From positions 1 to 24,750 of the IMG/VR virus record IMGVR_UViG_3300035157_000266: a stretch of DNA of 24,750 nucleotides; one strand, 5' to 3'. The notes under the pieces are model-generated. The model saw nothing but the letters and a program-made list of their open reading frames with translations, was not told the origin of the DNA and searched no databases. The translations under genes were made by a program, and so were the position numbers. This DNA comes from a virus. Below are positions 44 through 6,660 of this stretch, one piece after another. Every line of letters starts with the position of its first letter. Within the stretch, counting starts at the first letter, position 1.

Positions 44-175
44 TTATTTAATCTGTGTAAGTTTGCGTACTAGCTGTTTCGTTCTGGCCTTAGCTTGCCG
101 TATCTTAACAGGATTCTTCCTGCTTTTTGTCTTACGTTTACTATCAGCGTCCTTGAACTTTAAGATAATATTCAT
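44..175 (-). CDS. Very basic 43-residue early protein
   Basis: This short reading frame starts with ATG at 175 and stops with TAA at 44-46. The protein is strongly positive: after MNIILKFKDAD it is mostly Lys and Arg with Gln, Thr and Ala, and has no long hydrophobic stretch. That composition suits nucleic acid binding, but no family is recognised. The start overlaps the end of the upstream gene by 32 nt. An AAGGAG ribosome-binding sequence lies about 10 nt before the ATG, inside the upstream gene, which suggests translational coupling. The frame contains one copy of the recurring heptamer CAAGGAC, read here as Phe-Lys-Asp. A chance frame is possible because it is short, but start, ribosome site and composition agree. 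Confidence 0.55.
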   Translation of the reverse strand: MNIILKFKDADSKRKTKSRKNPVKIRQAKARTKQLVRKLTQIK

Positions 176-296
176 TGAGTAGTTTCTCCTTCAATGTGTG
201 TACGTCCTTGCTACTCATAGTGCATGACTCGGGACGTAAATTGATATGGTTAAATCTACCAATGAGATGTATAAGTTCAGCACTATTTAAATTCAA
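144..296 (-). CDS. Small early protein, probable TTG start
   Basis: An open frame continues upstream of 296, but that part would run through the structured element at 323-361. The best start is TTG at 294-296, preceded by a clean GGAGG at 301-305 with a 4-nt spacer. This gives a 50-residue protein beginning (M)NLNSAELIHLIGRFNHI and ending KVQGR. An alternative is an internal ATG (MSSKDVHTLKEK), giving 24 residues. No family is recognised; the second half looks helical and charged. It overlaps the next gene by 32 nt and holds one CAAGGAC heptamer (Ser-Lys-Asp). The GGAGG could pair with an upstream CCTCCA at 359-364, so initiation may be structure-controlled. Confidence 0.5.
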   Translation of the reverse strand: MNLNSAELIHLIGRFNHINLRPESCTMSSKDVHTLKEKLLNEYYLKVQGR

Positions 297-322
297 TTGA
301 CCTCCATAAGATAGGTGTGCTA

Positions 323-361
323 AGGGATGTGAATCCCTCATCCAACCCACGCATGGGCTGG
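323..361 (-). other. Intergenic double-hairpin element, T-arm-like
   Basis: Two hairpins fill the boundary between the 73- and 50-residue genes. The first (342-361) has an 8-bp stem CCAGCCCA/TGGGTTGG on the minus strand with loop TGCG; one pair is G.U and exists only in minus-strand RNA. The second (323-338) is AGGGA, TTCACA, TCCCT. The element at 612-664 has the same order, the same flanking GATTCTYTCCTC and an equivalent second hairpin with a compensatory G-C to A-T change. The pair therefore looks like a conserved RNA element. No acceptor-like stem was found here. Confidence 0.6.
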
Positions 362-371
362 AGGAGAGAAT

Positions 372-593
372 CTATTTAGTAGCCTTTGAACGTGTAGGTT
401 TCTTTACTTCTTTCTCAAGTGATTTCTTTACTATCTCTTGAGCAAACTTGAGTACTGTCTCAGGCTTAATACCAGTAAGAACTACACGATCTTCATAGTC
501 TCTGCTGATAATCAAACCACCGTGCTCCTCGCAGTACCAGATCTGTGCGTCCTTGAGGTAGTACTCGTGTGTTGATTCGAAATCTAAAGCCAT
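372..593 (-). CDS. Hypothetical early protein, 73 residues
   Basis: The chosen start is ATG at 591-593 (MALDFESTHEYYLKD); the frame upstream to 680 would run through the structured element 612-664 and is unlikely to be translated. The protein has a mixed N-terminal half with EYYLKD, IWYCEEHGG and a VVLTGIKPE segment, and a lysine-rich tail (KSLEKEVKKPTRSKATK) that looks disordered. No family is recognised. There is no clear Shine-Dalgarno sequence; TTAATCATG surrounds the start exactly as it does at the ArdA-like gene. One CAAGGAC heptamer encodes Leu-Lys-Asp. It is the fifth gene of the early run, separated from its neighbours by folded elements on both sides. Confidence 0.7.
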   Translation of the reverse strand: MALDFESTHEYYLKDAQIWYCEEHGGLIISRDYEDRVVLTGIKPETVLKFAQEIVKKSLEKEVKKPTRSKATK

Positions 594-611
594 GATTAAT
601 TGATAAACAAC

Positions 612-664
612 GAAGGGTGTGAGTCCTTCATCAAGCCAAGTATACCTATGTGGATATACATGGC
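612..664 (-). other. Intergenic double-hairpin element, T-arm-like
   Basis: On the minus strand a long hairpin comes first (635-664): 4 bp GCCA/TGGC, one T.T mismatch, then 7 bp GTATATC/GGTATAC with a 6-nt loop CACATA; its G.U pair exists only in minus-strand RNA. The second hairpin (612-629) is GAAGG/CCTTC with loop ACTCACAC. Both the flank (GATTCTTTCCTC) and the second hairpin match the element at 323-361. It lies between the 95- and 73-residue genes. It is probably an RNA processing or translation-control element. Confidence 0.6.
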
Positions 665-676
665 AAGAGGAAAGAA

Positions 677-964
677 TCAATCAAACGCACGCGCATAAGC
701 TCGGTCATAGATGACACGCGCTTGCTTGCCTACGTTCATGATGTCCTTAACAAGAGCACGTGATTCACGCTGGCTTATACCCCAACGTGCACGTACGTCC
801 TTGATGTAACTACTAAGTGGGATAAGTGTTGGCTTATCTAATAAAGTTAATGCCTCAACTTCAGCCACTAAGCAGTGGTCTTGTAATGTGTTAGCTATAT
901 CTATTAACTTAGCCTTAGTAAGTTTCTCGTTAATAGATACATTGAGTGCGTCCTTGTAATTCAT
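677..964 (-). CDS. Hypothetical early protein, 95 residues
   Basis: The start is taken at ATG 962-964 (MNYKDALNVSINEKL). Further start codons upstream (ATG at 977-979, GTG at 980-982) lie inside the hairpin 976-994 and are less likely. The protein is mostly helical and charged, with segments LIDIANTLQDHCLVAEVEAL and WGISQRESRALVKDIMNVGKQARVIYDR; the second has a possible helix-turn-helix look (RARWGISQRESRALVKD), which is only an impression. It carries three Lys-Asp pairs, two in exact CAAGGAC heptamers and one in TAAGGAC. No Shine-Dalgarno sequence is obvious. Family unknown. Confidence 0.7.
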   Translation of the reverse strand: MNYKDALNVSINEKLTKAKLIDIANTLQDHCLVAEVEALTLLDKPTLIPLSSYIKDVRARWGISQRESRALVKDIMNVGKQARVIYDRAYARAFD

Positions 965-975
965 TAGACATAAAC

Positions 976-994
976 GCATCACTCAGTGTGATGC
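976..994 (-). other. Hairpin before the 95-residue gene
   Basis: A perfect 7-bp stem GCATCAC/GTGATGC with a 5-nt loop (ACTGA on the minus strand) lies between the tRNA-like element 997-1042 and the start codon at 964. Hairpins with 5-nt loops occupy the same place after the next two elements upstream (1313-1327 and 1721-1737). Confidence 0.65.
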
Positions 995-996
995 AA

Positions 997-1042
997 TTGT
1001 GTGGGTAGGAGTTGCACCTACCACGAGCTATTCTCTACACAA
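997..1042 (-). other. tRNA-like minihelix, 46 nt
   Basis: Minus strand: acceptor-like stem TTGTGT/ACACAA (6 bp, 1037-1042 with 997-1002). It stacks on a T-arm-like hairpin GGTAGG/CCTACC (6 bp, 1004-1022) with the 7-nt loop TGCAACT, which resembles the tRNA T loop TTCRANY. One A.C mismatch separates the stems. The remaining 14 nt can form a tiny GAG/CTC arm in the place of a D arm. There is no anticodon arm and no encoded CCA. The element overlaps the last codons and TAG stop of the KTSC gene. Confidence 0.6.
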
Positions 1043-1289
1043 ACTCAGGTAATACTGGACCTAAATCTCTAGTTCTATCTGCATTAATGCAGTTGTTATT
1101 AACCCAGAAACCTAAGCTGACATCAGGGTTGAAGAGCACATTTAATATTGCTCTAGCTGATACATTCTCATACTCATATGTGTATCCGTTCTTGAATGTA
1201 ACTAATGCAAGTCTATTGATTGCATCTACCTTCAAGTCCTTGATAGCAGCAGATGTACGAGTAGGTACTGTGATAAACATGTTGATCAT
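1035..1289 (-). CDS. KTSC-domain protein, 84 residues
   Basis: The start is ATG at 1287-1289 (MINMFITVPTRTSAAIKDL); a second ATG follows three codons later. A longer open frame reaches back to 1478, but it overlaps the ArdA-like gene and runs through the tRNA-like element, so it is rejected. Residues about 11-60 look like the small KTSC domain: TSAAIKDL at the front, then a strand VTFKNG, the central YTYEYENV (YxY motif) and a helix around ARAILNVLF. The family is named for a C-terminal extension of lysyl-tRNA synthetases and is thought, without firm proof, to bind RNA. The gene lies between two tRNA-like minihelices. One CAAGGAC heptamer is present (Ile-Lys-Asp). Confidence 0.72.
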   Translation of the reverse strand: MINMFITVPTRTSAAIKDLKVDAINRLALVTFKNGYTYEYENVSARAILNVLFNPDVSLGFWVNNNCINADRTRDLGPVLPEFV

Positions 1290-1312
1290 GTGTTGATAAT
1301 GTGAACAATTAA

Positions 1313-1327
1313 GGGATGTAATATCCC
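1313..1327 (-). other. Hairpin before the KTSC gene
   Basis: Minus strand GGGAT, loop ATTAC, ATCCC: 5 bp with a 5-nt loop, 23 nt before the start codon at 1289. It directly follows the tRNA-like element 1330-1370, repeating the order element, small hairpin, gene. Confidence 0.6.
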
Positions 1328-1329
1328 AG

Positions 1330-1370
1330 TGCTTGCAAGGGAGTCGAACCCTTGCTACGACCATCAAGCA
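1330..1370 (-). other. tRNA-like minihelix, 41 nt
   Basis: This is the clearest member. Minus strand: acceptor-like stem TGCTTG/CAAGCA (6 bp, 1365-1370 with 1330-1335). It stacks directly on a T arm CAAGGG/CCCTTG (6 bp, 1336-1354) whose 7-nt loop TTCGACT fits the tRNA T-loop consensus. Only 10 nt (ATGGTCGTAG) replace the D and anticodon arms. The 12 bp total equals the acceptor plus T stack of a real tRNA. It begins one base after the stop codon of the ArdA-like gene. No CCA is encoded. Confidence 0.72.
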
Positions 1371-1371
1371 G

Positions 1372-1707
1372 TTAGAAGTTACGGAAGTAATGTCCATCAA
1401 CTTCGAAGTAATCAAAGCGAAGTTCACAAGACCAAACAGACTCCCAATCAATATGATTAAGAATGAAATCAGGTACACCTTGATTGCTTCCTAAGTAGCC
1501 GCATTCATCAGCTATTTGTTCAGCAAACTCAGCACCTGATGTGTACTGTCCTTGATATGAATCTTCGAATTGCTCAAGACTTTCAATCCCATAATCAATA
1601 AGCTCATTAAAGAACTCAATTGATATAGTTTTGAATTCATCCCAGTATCCTTGCTCAACAATTGATTGTTGTAGCTGTTCAGCTGGAGTAGTCATTGTTG
1701 CTAACAT
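1372..1707 (-). CDS. Short ArdA-like antirestriction protein
   Basis: The 111-residue product is acidic and its second half resembles the C-terminal half of ArdA: FEDSYQGQYTSGAEFAEQIADE, a GYL segment, then HIDWESVWSCELRFDYFEVDGHYFRNF, matching the family pattern of an acidic YQGxYxS block and a final GHxFRN. ArdA proteins are DNA mimics that block type I restriction enzymes. Usual ArdA proteins are about 165 residues, so this one keeps only part of the fold. T7 also carries a DNA-mimic antirestriction protein (gp0.3) at the start of its early region, so the position fits. The start is ATG at 1707; an alternative ATG lies at 1695. A CAAGGAC heptamer occurs here out of the Lys-Asp frame (Gln-Gly-Gln). 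Confidence 0.75.
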   Translation of the reverse strand: MLATMTTPAEQLQQSIVEQGYWDEFKTISIEFFNELIDYGIESLEQFEDSYQGQYTSGAEFAEQIADECGYLGSNQGVPDFILNHIDWESVWSCELRFDYFEVDGHYFRNF

Positions 1708-1720
1708 GATTAATAACTAA

Positions 1721-1737
1721 CCAACCTCATTGGTTGG
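1721..1737 (-). other. Hairpin before the ArdA-like gene
   Basis: A perfect 6-bp stem CCAACC/GGTTGG with a 5-nt loop (AATGA on the minus strand) lies between the tRNA-like element 1743-1785 and the ATG at 1707. The position and loop size match the hairpins at 976-994 and 1313-1327. Confidence 0.65.
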
Positions 1738-1742
1738 CAATT

Positions 1743-1785
1743 GAAAGAGGAGGATTTGATCCTCAGCTACACGCTGTACTCTTCC
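1743..1785 (-). other. tRNA-like minihelix, 43 nt
   Basis: Minus strand: 7-bp acceptor-like stem GGAAGAG/CTCTTTC (one G.U pair, valid only in minus-strand RNA), stacked directly on a T-arm hairpin at 1750-1764. That hairpin can be read as GAGGA/TCCTC with a 5-nt loop, or as 4 bp with the 7-nt loop ATCAAAT. The remaining 14 nt can form AGC/GCT with loop GTGTA, like a D arm. The stacked stems total 12 bp. It overlaps the last codons and TAG stop of the upstream gene by 19 nt. Confidence 0.62.
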
Positions 1786-1976
1786 CAATATTCCTGAAGC
1801 TCATCAGGATCTGTAATACTTTCACTATCCACGACCTTGTAGTGATCACCTAGTCCTGAACTGGATTTATCCCAGTTATTCTCTAGTACATCCAGTACTA
1901 ATTGACTGCAGTTAGGTGATACCAATGCAACAGGTCTTGTGTGACCTTGAGGTGTGAATGGTATTAGTTTTTTCAT
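1767..1976 (-). CDS. First early gene, hypothetical, 69 residues
   Basis: The start is ATG at 1974-1976 (MKKLIPFTPQGHTRPVALV); an upstream in-frame ATG at 1994 would add MFIYFL and almost touch the tRNA-like element. The product has a Pro- and Lys-containing N-terminus, a middle LVLDVLENNWDKSSSGLGDHYKVVD and an acidic end (DELQEYWEEYSV). No family is recognised; the Trp- and acid-rich C-terminus recalls small phage host-takeover proteins only in a general way. It is the first gene after the leader. No clear ribosome-binding site is seen; the sequence before the ATG is AT-rich (TTTATATATTTTCTT). Its stop codon lies inside the next tRNA-like element. Confidence 0.65.
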   Translation of the reverse strand: MKKLIPFTPQGHTRPVALVSPNCSQLVLDVLENNWDKSSSGLGDHYKVVDSESITDPDELQEYWEEYSV

Positions 1977-1995
1977 AAGAAAATATATAAACAAC

Positions 1996-2052
1996 GGAGC
2001 AGATCAGGTCTCGAACCTGAACTCGTTGAAGAGTGAGCCGAACGGCTGCTCC
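1996..2052 (-). other. tRNA-like element at the end of the early leader, 57 nt
   Basis: Minus strand: perfect 7-bp acceptor stem GGAGCAG/CTGCTCC (2046-2052 with 1996-2002), one bulged T, then a T arm TCAGG/CCTGA (2004-2020) with a textbook loop TTCGAGA. The central 25 nt can form GCC/GGC and ACTC/GAGT arms, giving a dwarf cloverleaf. It is 15-20 nt shorter than a tRNA, has no convincing anticodon loop and no CCA. A UTR-type position just before the first early gene is clear. Confidence 0.68.
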
Positions 2053-2068
2053 TGTTCATGTCAACATT

Positions 2069-2087
2069 GCAAGTTCAACCAACTTGC
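2069..2087 (-). other. Leader hairpin
   Basis: A perfect 7-bp stem GCAAGTT/AACTTGC with a 5-nt loop (GGTTG on the minus strand). It lies 16 nt before the tRNA-like element 1996-2052 in the direction of transcription. There is no U tract, so it is not a terminator. Confidence 0.6.
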
Positions 2088-2102
2088 TAGTCACCAGCTC
2101 AT

Positions 2103-2164
2103 TTCATACGCTGCTGGTTCAGCGGAGTTGACTCTTTTCGGCAGTCAACAGGACCATTGATGAA
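2103..2164 (-). other. Leader fold: two adjacent hairpins in a possible three-way junction
   Basis: Minus strand: hairpin GTTGACT/AGTCAAC (7 bp, 9-nt loop, 2127-2149) is followed two bases later by CGCTG/CAGCG (5 bp, 6-nt loop AACCAG, 2109-2124). A 5-bp stem TTCAT/ATGAA (2160-2164 with 2103-2107) could close both into a three-way junction. The two inner hairpins are clear; the closing stem is weak. Confidence 0.5.
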
Positions 2165-2187
2165 GCTCCTCTACAGGCAGCGGCTAG

Positions 2188-2213
2188 TTCAGCTTGAAGG
2201 GACACCAGCTGAA
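2188..2213 (-). other. Leader hairpin
   Basis: A 7-bp inverted repeat TTCAGCT/AGCTGAA with a 12-nt loop. It is one of a series of strong folds filling the leader between the promoter candidates and the first early gene. Confidence 0.5.
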
Positions 2214-2233
2214 GAGTGTTCATTTGATTCTGA

Positions 2234-2298
2234 TTGAATCTTGAGAACTCTCTCACCCTCTAACGAGAGTTCGAAAGATCTCAATCTTCAAGAATCAA
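2234..2298 (-). other. Large branched fold in the leader
   Basis: An 11-position outer stem TTGATTCTTGA/TCAAGATTCAA with one mismatch (2288-2298 with 2234-2244) encloses two hairpins: GAACTCTC/GAGAGTTC (8 bp, 12-nt loop, 2245-2272) and AGAT/ATCT (4 bp, 2276-2287). The whole is a three-way junction just downstream of the promoter candidate at 2308-2335. It may be a ribonuclease III-type processing site or a 5' stabiliser. Confidence 0.6.
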
Positions 2299-2307
2299 TA
2301 TGGATCT

Positions 2308-2335
2308 ACTATACCACGGTGGATAGCACTGTTCA
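2308..2335 (-). promoter_or_regulatory. Candidate sigma70-type early promoter
   Basis: Minus strand: TGAACA (4 of 6 to TTGACA), 16-nt spacer, TATAGT (5 of 6 to TATAAT) with an extended TGG just before it. It points towards the early genes and lies just upstream of the branched fold 2234-2298. Early genes of T7-like phages are read by host RNA polymerase, so such a promoter is expected here. The call is by eye only. Confidence 0.45.
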
Positions 2336-2356
2336 TGTATCAAATGTTACCGAGCT

Positions 2357-2426
2357 AGTGATAGCAATGGGAGTGCCAGTTCAATAAAGTGTCCACTGTC
2401 GCTAATATCACAGTGATAGCAATGGG
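2357..2426. repeat. 15-nt direct repeat, two copies 55 bases apart
   Basis: AGTGATAGCAATGGG occurs exactly at 2357-2371 and 2412-2426. The second copy overlaps the promoter candidate and palindrome; the first lies between the two promoter candidates. Exact repetition in a gene-free stretch suggests binding sites. Confidence 0.8.
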
Positions 2427-2430
2427 TCAA
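2402..2430 (-). promoter_or_regulatory. Candidate sigma70-type early promoter with palindrome
   Basis: Minus strand: TTGACC (5 of 6), 17-nt spacer, TATTAG (4 of 6) preceded by TGA, an extended -10 arrangement. A perfect palindrome TATCAC-N-GTGATA (2406-2418) covers the spacer and the start of the -10 element, as an operator would. Confidence 0.48.
2406..2418. promoter_or_regulatory. Operator-like palindrome
   Basis: TATCAC, one base, GTGATA: a perfect 6-bp inverted repeat inside the promoter candidate 2402-2430. One arm is part of a 15-nt direct repeat whose second copy (2357-2371) keeps the arm GTGATA but not the other half. A dimeric repressor or host regulator could bind; nothing in the window identifies one. 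Confidence 0.45.
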
Positions 2431-2486
2431 GAGATTGTGTTGATTTGCTGACCGGACAGATCACACGAGATGCACACCACGCGAGT

Positions 2487-2589
2487 GAAACCAACTACCG
2501 CACGCAGGCGCAGGCGATTATATTGCCAAGATCCCAGTGTTTTGAGGGAGATTATCAATCTACCGCGCCCGCGAAACCAACTACCGCAC
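2487..2589. repeat. 17-nt direct repeat, two copies 86 bases apart, plus a partial third
   Basis: GAAACCAACTACCGCAC occurs exactly at 2487-2503 and 2573-2589, with a related CAATCTACCGCGC at 2556-2568. The stretch around them is rich in GC runs (GCAGGCGCAGGCG, CGCGCCCGCG), unlike the AT-rich genes next to it. Candidates are packaging or end-processing signals near the genome end, or protein-binding sites. Confidence 0.8.
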
Positions 2590-2605
2590 CCGCACGGGGA
2601 CATAT

Positions 2606-2624
2606 GGCGACCTCACACTATAGG
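2606..2624 (+). promoter_or_regulatory. T7-promoter-like sequence on the plus strand
   Basis: The plus strand reads CTCACACTATAGG, close to the 3' part of the T7 class consensus CTCACTATAGG (two extra bases). About 12 of 19 positions match when aligned on TATAGG. It would fire against talC, opposite to every gene here. It may be chance, or an antisense or replication-linked promoter for the phage polymerase. Confidence 0.25.
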
Positions 2625-2640
2625 TATTGCCTTCAGAAAT

Positions 2641-3279
2641 TTATGCCAAAAAATCACGGTTAAATTGCTCTAATCCCTTATCTGTTAGCACGTGAGAAGC
2701 CATATTATCAAAGACTTTTGGAGGAATAGTACATATATCAGCACCAAACTCAAAAGACCTACCAACTGACTGTACATCTCGTACAGAAGCAGCTAATACC
2801 TTAGTGTTAACCTTCTGTTTTTCAAATACATCACATATATCATGTAATAAACTCAAACCAGTAAGACTATTATCATCCATACGTCCAATAAAGGGTGATA
2901 TATACGTAGCACCAGCTAATGAGCACAGTATTGCTTGAGATGAGCTAAATACGAGAGTCATATTAACTCTAAGACCAATATTAGTTAAATACTTACAAGC
3001 TTTAAGTCCTTCTAACGTACAAGGAAGCTTAATAGTAGCTACGTTGCCATAGTTTTTATTAACAGCTATTCCATTAGCTATCAATTCTTTAGAAGTATCA
3101 CCATTTACTTCAATACTAAGATCTTCTACACCTAATTCTATTATATCTGTATATACCTTCCAAGGATCCCTACCACTCTTTCTAATAAGGGTAGGGTTAG
3201 TTGTTACACCAGCTATAAGACCAGTATCTAATCTTTGTTCTATATCAGATACAATAGCTGTATCAAGAAAAAGCTTCAT
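2641..3279 (-). CDS. talC: Transaldolase, phage TalC type
   Basis: The 212-residue protein has the short TalC/fructose-6-phosphate-aldolase fold length, not the about 320 residues of host transaldolase. Visible marks are FLDTA (Asp6), GVTTNPTLI at about 24-32, the Schiff-base lysine in ATIKLPCT (Lys84) and YISPFIGRMDD at about 126-136. It transfers a dihydroxyacetone unit between sugar phosphates in the pentose phosphate pathway. In cyanophages this is known to push host carbon flow towards NADPH and ribose-5-phosphate for nucleotide synthesis. Its start lies 17 nt inside the end of thyX, so the two are likely co-translated. It is the last late gene; the leader region follows its stop. Confidence 0.95.
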   Translation of the reverse strand: MKLFLDTAIVSDIEQRLDTGLIAGVTTNPTLIRKSGRDPWKVYTDIIELGVEDLSIEVNGDTSKELIANGIAVNKNYGNVATIKLPCTLEGLKACKYLTNIGLRVNMTLVFSSSQAILCSLAGATYISPFIGRMDDNSLTGLSLLHDICDVFEKQKVNTKVLAASVRDVQSVGRSFEFGADICTIPPKVFDNMASHVLTDKGLEQFNRDFLA

Positions 3280-3889
3280 AAGTGAGTGGAAATTGAGTTT
3301 TAATTAATTGTTGACAAGCTTCAGCTATGTCTTGATGTTCTTTCTGAGTACCGTTAGCTGTTCTAAGATCTACGTAATGAAGCCAAGACCTTAAGGTACC
3401 ATTCATATAAAGGCGTGTAGGAGCACCCATTGGCAACACTTCTCTAGCACATTCTTTAGCTATACCTTCTTCAAGCAAGTTCTTATAAAGCCTATAGCAC
3501 TTAGCATAATGAAGTTGGATAGTAGCTTGCCAATTAAGTTTATCTATATCATCACTATCGATACTATTCTGTCTATTCTTCAGATCTTGAAGTCTCAGGT
3601 CAGGAGGTGAAGGAAGTTCTAATTCTTCTACATTTGCATACCGTTGACTAAACTCTTGAAAGCTAAAAGATCTGTGTCTAAGTATCTGAGCAGATATAGA
3701 CCTAGTAGTATTAATTTCTACACACATATTCACCATCTCAAAGGGAGACCAGTGTTTATGTTTAATAAGATACTTAATTAGTTTAGAGCTATCTTTATTA
3801 TCTTGATTAGTAGGGTTAGAGACTCTAGCCATATAAGCTATCAACTCATCACCATCCTTAGTGGAGTGTACTAAAGATACTGTACTCAT
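3263..3889 (-). CDS. thyX: FAD-dependent thymidylate synthase ThyX
   Basis: The 208-residue protein carries the ThyX signature RHRSFSFQEFSQR at 71-83 (RHRxxSxxxxSxR), which binds FAD and dUMP. Near the C-terminus LRTANGTQKEHQDIAEA fits the second conserved dUMP-site block. ThyX makes dTMP from dUMP using methylene-tetrahydrofolate, NADPH and FAD. Length is normal for the family. The start is ATG at 3889 (MSTVSLVHS). It follows a 168-nt gap with a strong hairpin after the terminase gene and overlaps talC by 17 nt. Together the pair supplies thymidylate and pentose or NADPH for phage DNA synthesis. Its place in the late block, away from DNA metabolism genes, follows talC. Confidence 0.95.
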   Translation of the reverse strand: MSTVSLVHSTKDGDELIAYMARVSNPTNQDNKDSSKLIKYLIKHKHWSPFEMVNMCVEINTTRSISAQILRHRSFSFQEFSQRYANVEELELPSPPDLRLQDLKNRQNSIDSDDIDKLNWQATIQLHYAKCYRLYKNLLEEGIAKECAREVLPMGAPTRLYMNGTLRSWLHYVDLRTANGTQKEHQDIAEACQQLIKTQFPLTYEAFS

Positions 3890-4057: not shown

Positions 4058-5800
4058 CTAAACCCAGGTGGGGACTGAGGAGTTGTTTGTGTCTATTAAG
4101 TTAGCTTGGTCTCTTTGTTTTTTATTCATTCCGAGTACCATATGGTTAGCGGAAGCTGTAGGATTATCCATAAATTCTTGAAGCATTGCATCCCATTCTT
4201 CACGTTTACGTTGTTTAGTTGTCTCATGAGCAGAGATAGACATAGCATCTGTGTAGTACTTAATACCCTGAGCTAAGCAGTCTAATCTGTCATCATGTTT
4301 AACAGCACCTTTCTCTCTACACATTCTAGACATCTGGTAGAAGAGCATATACATGAGACGTTTTTCTGGAGCTTCATCTTGGTTAGATTTGTAATCCCAC
4401 TCTATAACTGATCTGTCTACTACTAACCTGTGTTGGTTCATAACAGGTTCTAGGGAATCAATTATTCTGTCTTCTTTTCTAACATTAGCTCTAACTTCTT
4501 CTACATCTATAGCTTGACCTGTCATCTGTAGATGTTTTTTAAAGAGTTCCCCAACGATTCCATCTCCAAAGTTAGTTTCGATAACGAGTTTGGTAACGTT
4601 ATACTTCCTACATCCTCTAAGAATATTGAGCAAGGTATTGTCTGAGTACCCGTCTCTGTAAGCACGCATTTCATGCAGATATAGGAAGCCGTTCTTTTGA
4701 GATATGAATGCTGCGGCTGTTTCATCTGTTCCTCTACCCGACGGATCAACGGAGCATATAGATTCAGCGTATTCTGTCCATTCTCCTTGGAGTTGCATTG
4801 GAGAATAAAAATAATCTCCTGGTAGACCGACTGTGGGTAAGTCTTTGATAACGTTTTGAGGGTCTGAGCACCAAATAACTTGATCGGGAGCAGACTTAGG
4901 GTTAACACTTGTAACCACAAGGTCAGCCATTTTAAGAGGGAACTTTTCAGCATCACTTAAGGAGGTATCTAATTGGAACTGCAACATATAGTTGCTACGA
5001 CCCATAGCTGCCTCTCTTTCGAGTAGATCTTCGTTAGCGAATCTGTCAGGATCTGTTACGTCCCACTCTTGAGCACCACTATCTAGGTCTTCTTGTATTT
5101 GGGGTGCTAATAGTCCTTCGTATTTTGTAAGTTTATCTTTTCTTGGGTATCTACTTGGCCAAACGAACGGACGGTAGTTACGCTCTGCCAACTTACGATA
5201 AACAGTAAAAACAGTCTGAGGAGTCCCGAGATAGCAAATACGGCTATCAGATTTCGGCGTGAGGATGGATTCTGCTTCTGTGCAGAGTTGAAGAAGTTTT
5301 TCACGCATCAACTCCGTCATACTGTTTCCTGGTACTTCTATGTCGTCTAGAACCATGAGATCTGCACGGGAACCAGTTAGTTGTCCAGTAATACCAACGC
5401 TTTTTACGCTTGGAGCCTGATGAGGCGAGCAAGCTACGTCGAAGGATATACGACTCCACCTTGCCTCGTCGCTTTTTGGTTGGAGGTGAGTTAACCATGG
5501 TGTTTCGATTATTAGTTTTTGAAGGAAGATAGACATGTTATCTGCACGTTCTTTAGATGCAGATATAATCATGATCTTTCTTTCTGGGTCTTTGAATAAC
5601 GTCCACAACACGAACGCACCTGTAATCCAAGATTTTCCGACTCCTCGGAAGGCTTGAATCTGTAGACGTTTAGGACCGTGTTGTAGATAGTCAGCTATTG
5701 CGAATTGTGCTCTTGTTGGTGGAGGGAGGTCAAGCTGTTCCCATAAAGCGGTCAGAAACAGCTTGAAATCGCCCTGTAAGGCTTCCAAAGGGTTGGTCAT
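4058..5800 (-). CDS. terL: Terminase large subunit, T7 gp19-like
   Basis: The 580-residue protein has an N-terminal packaging ATPase and a C-terminal nuclease. Walker A is FRGVGKSW at 51-58 and Walker B is LMVLDDIE at about 148-155. The nuclease part shows an acidic strand CSVDPSGRGTDE (Asp352), VIETNFGDG (Glu409) and the final KHDDRLDCLAQG (Asp503, Asp504, Asp507), as in RNase H-like terminases. It cuts the concatemer and drives DNA into the prohead together with TerS and the portal. Length is close to T7 gp19 (586). It lies in the usual T7 place near the end of the late genes, 35 nt after the lysine-rich gene. Confidence 0.96.
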   Translation of the reverse strand: MTNPLEALQGDFKLFLTALWEQLDLPPPTRAQFAIADYLQHGPKRLQIQAFRGVGKSWITGAFVLWTLFKDPERKIMIISASKERADNMSIFLQKLIIETPWLTHLQPKSDEARWSRISFDVACSPHQAPSVKSVGITGQLTGSRADLMVLDDIEVPGNSMTELMREKLLQLCTEAESILTPKSDSRICYLGTPQTVFTVYRKLAERNYRPFVWPSRYPRKDKLTKYEGLLAPQIQEDLDSGAQEWDVTDPDRFANEDLLEREAAMGRSNYMLQFQLDTSLSDAEKFPLKMADLVVTSVNPKSAPDQVIWCSDPQNVIKDLPTVGLPGDYFYSPMQLQGEWTEYAESICSVDPSGRGTDETAAAFISQKNGFLYLHEMRAYRDGYSDNTLLNILRGCRKYNVTKLVIETNFGDGIVGELFKKHLQMTGQAIDVEEVRANVRKEDRIIDSLEPVMNQHRLVVDRSVIEWDYKSNQDEAPEKRLMYMLFYQMSRMCREKGAVKHDDRLDCLAQGIKYYTDAMSISAHETTKQRKREEWDAMLQEFMDNPTASANHMVLGMNKKQRDQANLIDTNNSSVPTWV

Positions 5801-5835
5801 GTATGTTTTATCGTTTGACTATTTTCAGTAGGCTT

Positions 5836-6660
5836 CTAGGCCATTGGAATCTTTAATCCTGGTTGTCCTGGTACGTTAAATATTTGAACAGGTTTATAGC
5901 CAGGTATATTAGTTTCTCCAAAGAGGGAGAACGCTGGATTCAATCTAGTATTTTTTATACCAAATCCTCCTTTGATTTTCATCTTTCCGTTCTTTCCGTT
6001 CTTTCCGTTAATTTTAACTCCATTATTTCTACCTAAAACTTCATCTGTTTCCTTACCTGCATTTTGGATAGATTTATAATATTTAGGTTCTGTTTTTCCA
6101 TGAAGTTTATCATGTGCAGTATGTGACATTTCGTAGATATTTCCTACAGAATGAGCACCACCTTTCAGTCCAACTGATGCATATCTTTGGTCAAATAATT
6201 TACCCGCTTTTGGACCACCTTTAGCTATAGCCTCTGCCTTTCCTTTTGCATAAGATGAAATTAATAAACCGTGATGACCTACTTTTCCTCTAGAACTAAT
6301 CTTAGCCATCTTTTTATTAGCTTTAGATCTAACCTCTGCATCAGGACTAGCAAGTTTTTCAGCATCTCCTCGTTTCCCTTTACCTGAGCCTCCTTTGCCA
6401 AAACGATTATCTTTACGTGTTTCAAAATTCTCATGTTCAGCTTTTATACCATAAGAGTCTTTTTTTGCACGTGACTTGTACCTCATTATTTTTGCAGGTT
6501 TGCCAGGTGGTTGATATACATTCAAACCTTTCTTCTTTGCTTCAGCTATAGATTTTGGTAATCCTTTTCGTCTTTCTTCTTTTGTTGGTGTTCTTAATCC
6601 ATTACCGTCGATTTTTATTTTCTGTCCATCGACGAAAACGAATTCGCCTGGTTTAGCCAT
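5836..6660 (-). CDS. Lysine- and glycine-rich protein, 274 residues
   Basis: Family not recognised. The first 110 residues are very basic (KKEERRKG-type runs, GKGGSGKGKRGD) and probably disordered. The middle, about 125-190, has KVGHHGLLISSY, GLKGGAHSVGNIYEM and AHDKLHG; the spacing of His and Asn recalls degenerate HNH-type nucleases, but this is only a resemblance. Near 220-230 a run of three NGK units is encoded by an exact 9-nt triplication. The ATG stands directly after the U tract of a Rho-independent terminator, leaving no room for a ribosome-binding site, so expression must come from read-through or an unusual start. A DNA-binding or virion-associated role is possible. It sits between the HNH gene and terL. 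Confidence 0.8.
   Translation of the reverse strand: MAKPGEFVFVDGQKIKIDGNGLRTPTKEERRKGLPKSIAEAKKKGLNVYQPPGKPAKIMRYKSRAKKDSYGIKAEHENFETRKDNRFGKGGSGKGKRGDAEKLASPDAEVRSKANKKMAKISSRGKVGHHGLLISSYAKGKAEAIAKGGPKAGKLFDQRYASVGLKGGAHSVGNIYEMSHTAHDKLHGKTEPKYYKSIQNAGKETDEVLGRNNGVKINGKNGKNGKMKIKGGFGIKNTRLNPAFSLFGETNIPGYKPVQIFNVPGQPGLKIPMA
5983..6009. repeat. 9-nt tandem repeat, three copies
   Basis: CTTTCCGTT is repeated three times without change, encoding Asn-Gly-Lys three times in the 274-residue protein. Exact 9-nt units keep the frame, so copy number can vary without breaking the gene. Confidence 0.9.

Follow-up and report, generated by a model that had tools for sequence, protein, structure and literature searches.

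The early messages of phage T7 are separated by RNase III processing sites, and the 3′ ends of plant RNA viruses (TYMV and BMV type) and of the MALAT1 mascRNA mimic tRNAs and are read by tRNA enzymes. RNase P cleaves the phage phi80-induced RNA, the P1/P7 C4 RNA, and the mRNAs of some bacterial operons. In mitochondria, tRNA structures are located between the genes of polycistronic RNA and are processed by the enzymes that mature tRNA ends (PMC11996679). The locus described here is the early region of a T7-like marine cyanophage, in which predicted tRNA-like minihelices occupy successive gene junctions.

The early region and its four minihelices

The window, which is the whole stretch of 24,750 bases analyzed here, is from an uncultured viral record; its terminase region has 74-77% DNA identity to P-SSP7, P-SSP2, P-SSP3, P-GSP1, and NATL1A-7. 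The genes are on the minus strand, with approximately 600 mostly non-coding bases separating talC from the early genes, which run from 1976 downwards.

3263-3889, minus strand: thyX
2641-3279, minus strand: talC
1767-1976, minus strand: early gene 1 (MKKLIPF...), with its TAG stop (1769-1767) within element E2
1372-1707, minus strand: early gene 2, an ArdA-like antirestriction protein, with its stop codon immediately 5′ of E3
1035-1289, minus strand: early gene 3, a conserved early protein of ~81-84 aa, putatively KTSC-like, with its TAG stop overlapping the E4 5′ strand
677-964, minus strand: early gene 4 (MNYKDALNV...)

All four of the minihelices reported in an earlier note on this DNA are present. 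Each is composed of an acceptor-like stem stacked on a T-arm.

1996-2052, minus strand: minihelix E1, GGAGCAG/CTGCTCC + TCAGG-TTCGAGA-CCTGA, 7+5 bp and a single bulged U
1743-1785, minus strand: minihelix E2, GGAAGAG/CTCTTTC + GAGG-ATCAAAT-CCTC, 7+4 = 11 bp
1330-1370, minus strand: minihelix E3, TGCTTG/CAAGCA + CAAGGG-TTCGACT-CCCTTG, 6+6 bp with a 10-nt linker
997-1042, minus strand: minihelix E4, TTGTGT/ACACAA + GGTAGG-TGCAACT-CCTACC, 6+6 bp with a bulged C

The note had assigned a 12-bp stack to all four and had placed them at the first four early gene boundaries. The stack length is correct for E1, E3, and E4, but E2 has 11 bp in the window, versus 12 bp in most of its orthologs, and it is followed by A74-U75. 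Likewise, E2, E3, and E4 do occupy the three junctions after early genes 1, 2, and 3, but E1, which holds a small internal arm (ACTC..GAGT), precedes the first early gene. The short stretch said to replace the D and anticodon arms is, in many relatives, one or two small hairpins, and these linkers span 8-32 nt among the distinct elements of the window and its relatives. None of the elements forms a cloverleaf with a D arm, an anticodon arm, and a 7-nt anticodon loop; what they have is the 12-bp acceptor-T stack and a TTCRANN T-loop, from which E2 of the window deviates in both stack and loop (ATCAAAT). The window elements have no relevant match in Rfam at gathering or loose thresholds.

A descriptor of a T-arm plus acceptor finds four minus-strand matches in the whole window, namely E1, E3, E4, and a chance match in the terminase gene, and none on the plus strand; when bases 1-2100 are dinucleotide-shuffled, the average is 0.025 matches. 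The RNAfold z-scores of E1 to E4 (-2.2, -2.9, -1.6, and -2.6) are modest and too weak alone to decide, and the deciding evidence for the predicted minihelices, which is strong, is comparative and does not come from folding energy.

Conservation among cyanophage relatives

Approximately 60 related loci were obtained by scans with the early proteins; the early gene 4 protein has no tblastn match in phage records, and a scan with the integrase yielded few loci. Stack length was examined for all TTCRANN loops borne on a stem of 4 bp or more, by seeking a partner farther 5′ for the 3′ strand; complete tRNAs were masked and acceptor pairing was not selected for. Among 81 such T-arms on the coding strand, the stack is exactly 12 bp in 52 and 13 bp in 14. 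The opposite strand has 21 T-arms in a flat distribution, two with 12 bp and two with 13 bp; shuffled sequence gives three T-arms, none with 12-13 bp, and none of the 26 in 235 kb of host-type DNA reaches 11 bp. No element is found on the coding strand of the whole T7 genome. The split of the stack varies (6+6, 7+5, 5+7, and 4+8) and the sum is constant. A stack of 12 bp is the dimension of the acceptor-T domain of tRNA, an edge that is measured by RNase P and by CCA-adding enzymes. A loop length of 7 and an offset of 0-1 are also prominent when no loop sequence is imposed, in a scan with complete tRNAs unmasked, and the descriptor has 131 coding-strand versus 15 opposite-strand matches over the related loci, complete tRNAs included.

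The stems are also supported by covariation. Changes on both sides occur in 12 of 18 pairs in the E1 set (9 sequences) and in 8 of 13 pairs in the E3 set (15 sequences), and the covariation score of ~0.54 in both sets is greater than in all 500 shuffles, with slid controls at 0.05-0.19. The sets were aligned with MAFFT and related sequences in them share changes; the percentage paired is biased upward because the aligned sequences were found with the descriptor. The loss of the paired stems from homologous boundaries, which the note had named among the results that would speak against its reading, is not what is observed, and these boundaries keep the stems with many compensatory changes. Covariance model R1 recovers E3 (E=6.7e-16) and model R2 recovers E1 (E = 2e-16), each of which is in the respective training set, and the models reach further members outside the training sets. 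Model R1 has no significant match in one Prochlorococcus genome. The presence of acceptor-T minihelices at early gene boundaries is thus strongly supported by the comparisons among relatives.

Minihelices are also present in cultured phages, where they lie at annotated junctions and are themselves unannotated.

S-TIP37 (locus L075): minihelices at 986-1033 and 1441-1486
S-SBP1 (locus L074): minihelices at 929-975 and 1325-1371
9515-10a (locus L078): minihelices at 5828-5873 and 6481-6527
P-SSP10 (locus L081): minihelices at 5829-5874 and 6522-6568
P-GSP1 (locus L077): minihelix at 5317-5361
S-RIP2 (locus L071): minihelix at 4910-4956

When folded, the elements of S-TIP37, S-SBP1, 9515-10a, P-SSP10, and S-RIP2 give a three-way junction in which the acceptor meets one small arm and the T-arm, and a separate hairpin comes next. 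In related locus L018, six minihelices matched by the descriptor and one tRNA-Asp are spread over successive early junctions in a 2-kb stretch. As in tRNA punctuation, the elements are located at coding-strand gene junctions of a polycistronic region. The descriptor did not find elements in the sister phages P-SSP7, S-CBP4, S-CBP3, S-RIP1, and S-CBP1, and the elements are therefore not essential to this lifestyle, for which the group has more than one solution.

A complete tRNA-Asp(GTC) is identified by ARAGORN in the early region of most related loci (38 loci of uncultured relatives, duplicates removed), for example, at 4896-4969 in L058 and at 328-401 in L002, and ARAGORN finds no complete tRNA, tRNA-Asp included, in the window. 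The same gene pair is separated by the 46-nt E4 in the window and by a complete tRNA-Asp in L058, and the ~50 nt that follow on the 3′ side are identical (TTGCATCACACTGAGTGATGCGTTTATGTCTAATGAATTACAAGGACGCACT). This replacement suggests that the junction needs the acceptor-T half and the 3′ end, and not the decoding half. We note that L002 also has a partial tRNA-Leu-like sequence at ~4266-4310, shortly 3′ of the integrase gene, which is possibly an attachment site.

A separate hairpin follows E2, E3, and E4, and there is none after E1 or other members of its class.

1720-1738, minus strand: hairpin after E2, GCCAACC-AATGA-GGTTGGT, close to where the downstream RNA is predicted to begin
1313-1327, minus strand: hairpin after E3, GGGAT-ATTAC-ATCCC, beginning 2 nt after N73
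975-995, minus strand: hairpin directly 3′ of E4, TGCATCAC-ACTGA-GTGATGCG, identical after the L058 tRNA-Asp

Among 65 distinct downstream sequences, 38 have a hairpin of 5 bp or more whose start is 1-4 nt past N73, whereas one starts within 6 nt in ~12% of shuffles, and the same hairpins also follow the complete tRNA-Asp. Between the hairpin and many early start codons there is a recurring TTGTTCAC-like stretch (e.g., at ~1310-1300 on the minus strand of the window), which stands in place of an obvious Shine-Dalgarno sequence.

The early region has other conserved signals. The two junctions after E4 carry elements of a different class, which we refer to as type B.

610-678, minus strand: type-B junction element, a long imperfect hairpin, GATTCTTTCCTC...GATGAAGGACTC, RNAfold z -4.0
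310-373, minus strand: type-B junction element, GATTCTCTCCTC...GATGAGGGATTC, RNAfold z -2.8

The type-B pattern, GAYTCTYTCCTC-hairpin-GATGARGGAYTC, has 44 coding-strand and no opposite-strand matches in the window and at later early junctions of its relatives, and these elements might be RNase III-type sites. In addition, the heptamer CAAGGAC (extended, CAAGGACGYA) occurs seven times in the early region of the window (149-1554, minus strand), always on the coding strand, and nowhere in the other 22 kb. It has 353 coding-strand versus 26 opposite-strand occurrences in the relatives, including L002, most other related loci, and P-SSP7 (2072-3655 of locus L003), and is absent from 9515-10a and P-SSP10. 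The heptamer is not tied to one reading frame and also occurs in non-coding DNA, and thus looks like a signal at the nucleic acid level.

End signatures and candidate processing enzymes

The 3′ context of the minihelices resembles that of host tRNAs. U74 follows directly after the 3′ strand in 48 of the 52 distinct elements, and U74 or U75 is present in 49, although these 52 represent roughly a dozen families and the counts are thus not fully independent; CCA is absent. In a Prochlorococcus genome, 29 of 30 tRNAs lack an encoded CCA and 27 of those 29 have U74 or U75. The RNase Z of B. subtilis is stimulated ~200-fold when a U is located no more than 2 nt from the discriminator (PMC10100781). 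The phage elements share these features of RNase Z substrates, with an acceptor-T minihelix, no CCA, and a U no more than 2 nt after the discriminator.

The 5′ context is different. Only 9 of the 52 minihelices have U-1 and 25 have G1, whereas the complete phage tRNA-Asp has U-1 in 33 of 34 cases and G1 in all 34. In their sequence, the 3′ signature for RNase Z is thus retained and the 5′ signature for RNase P is lost. The stop of an upstream ORF was assignable for 34 of the 52 elements and for none of the other 18, and in 26 of the 34 this stop codon lies inside the element; alternative classes of ORF relation, which mislabel some elements as inside an ORF owing to spurious long frames, were set aside. 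A cut at the 5′ end would therefore strip the upstream message of its stop codon. The 5′ side of the elements is continuous with the upstream ORF, and the processed 5′ end preferred by human ELAC2 is absent. ELAC2 disfavors substrates with 5′ leaders and acts after RNase P (PMC11996679), a preference of the human enzyme that we did not use as a defining feature of bacterial substrates.

Cutting or capping of the early RNA at these elements, as the earlier note proposed, would be the best mechanism to account for these patterns. That note put RNase P first, but the evidence favors RNase Z, since the 3′ context (N73-U74-U75, no CCA) is tRNA-like and the 5′ context is not, and since an RNase P cut would remove most upstream stop codons. 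We consider it probable that the elements, as tRNA mimics with no decoding part, are signals for RNA processing at which host RNase Z cuts after N73. The polycistronic early RNA would be transcribed through each junction and the mimic would fold, retaining the part that is seen by 3′-end enzymes (the 12-bp acceptor-T stack, the T-loop, and the U after the discriminator). Following cleavage by host RNase Z, the upstream mRNA would end in a compact and protective tRNA-like 3′ structure that may receive CCA, and the downstream mRNA would have 2-4 nt at its start and then, in most cases, a 5-10-bp hairpin to shield the 5′ end; message stability or timing may be affected. The host genome examined has genes for RNase Z and for CCA-enzyme-type proteins. 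The proposal meets its main difficulty in the long upstream mRNA, which the cyanobacterial RNase Z would have to tolerate, and it also does not readily account for E1, which is 5′ of the first gene and has no hairpin, or for E2 of the window, with its 11 bp and A74-U75. A fuller scenario, which we offer tentatively, is that the phage lineage reduced tRNAs to the half that RNase Z reads, and set them between early genes with the stop codons inside, such that RNase Z cleavage would give CCA-tailed tRNA-like 3′ ends and a hairpin-led next mRNA in a cut-and-cap device.

It is unlikely that RNase P, either alone or followed by RNase Z, cuts the minihelix 5′ end and releases the minihelix in the style of mitochondrial punctuation. 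Minimal RNase P substrates are the subject of a study listed by PMC5723415. An acceptor-T stack with a T-loop is a minimal bacterial RNase P substrate, the complete tRNA-Asp of the same operons keeps U-1 and G1, and in some elements the upstream stop is clear of the 5′ end; the scarcity of U-1 and G1 in the minihelices themselves, together with the loss of the upstream stop in 26 of 34 cases, nonetheless argues against it. Quite unlikely, too, is a role as uncut folded mRNA elements that block 3′ exonucleases or act as sites for TruB, EF-Tu, or the CCA enzyme, altering the stability or translation of the overlapping genes. TruB has been crystallized with a tRNA minihelix (PMC4810234), and with the stop codon inside the element folding competes with translation termination, but this reading leaves unexplained both the U74 right after the helix and the hairpin 1-4 nt further on.

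We give little credence to a trans role in which released minihelices would engage host tRNA enzymes as decoys or shield tRNAs from tRNA-targeting defenses. The earliest region of a genome carries several copies and the T-loop is conserved, but the placement at successive junctions, the stop codon overlap, and the following hairpin indicate a role in cis. That the elements are tRNA genes in decay or remnants of integration sites, with no role today, is scarcely credible: the relatives do carry complete tRNA-Asp, E4 is at the tRNA-Asp site, and L002 has the tRNA-Leu-like sequence after its integrase, but decay would not give strong covariation, a 12-bp ruler with a changing split, and the same reduced form at several junctions. 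The covariation leads us to reject a remnant or attP as the present function, and tRNA decay is a possible origin of the elements. Two familiar signals were also rejected. Intrinsic terminators, in which a U run comes after a GC-rich stem, do not fit, as the minihelices are followed by N-U-U and then usually a hairpin, with no U run, although a weak terminator scanner flags some hairpins with AT-rich tails. A T7-type RNase III site is a long duplex with an internal loop, whereas E1 to E4 are minihelices; the type-B elements are closer to this form.

Relation to known systems

If the RNase Z proposal is correct, a widespread group of ocean viruses uses decoding-free tRNA mimics to hijack a host tRNA 3′-end enzyme for the processing of its early messages, much as T7 uses RNase III sites. 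Bacterial RNase Z would then have dedicated mRNA substrates, nature would offer in these elements minimal substrates of RNase Z and of CCA enzymes, and an RNA class would have been missed by the tRNA finder and Rfam. The proposal is directly testable, as the elements are carried by the cultured phages 9515-10a (Prochlorococcus MIT9515), P-SSP10 (NATL2A), and S-TIP37 (Synechococcus WH8109). We found no paper describing such elements within a literature coverage that was incomplete.

The arrangement is like mitochondrial tRNA punctuation in having tRNA structures between genes, but it is in a DNA phage genome, and most of the phage marks have no decoding arms and cannot be tRNAs; the RNase P signature is also missing from them, and they share bases with the upstream stop codon. 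Like the RNase III sites of T7, they are early-junction signals of a T7-like phage that would give separate messages with structured ends, although the cyanophage structure mimics a tRNA and is not a long duplex. Plant-virus tRNA-like structures and mascRNA differ in that the phage elements are repeated internally at junctions and have only the acceptor-T domain and small arms. The phi80, C4, and operon mRNA cases share with our prediction the action of a tRNA-processing enzyme on non-tRNA phage or operon RNA, but to our knowledge these are single sites, with no minihelix series at successive junctions and no U74 signature. Both tRNA punctuation and tRNA mimicry are thus known in kind, and what appears to be new is that they occur in series and free of decoding parts in the early operon of a T7-like phage, with the 3′-processing signature alone.
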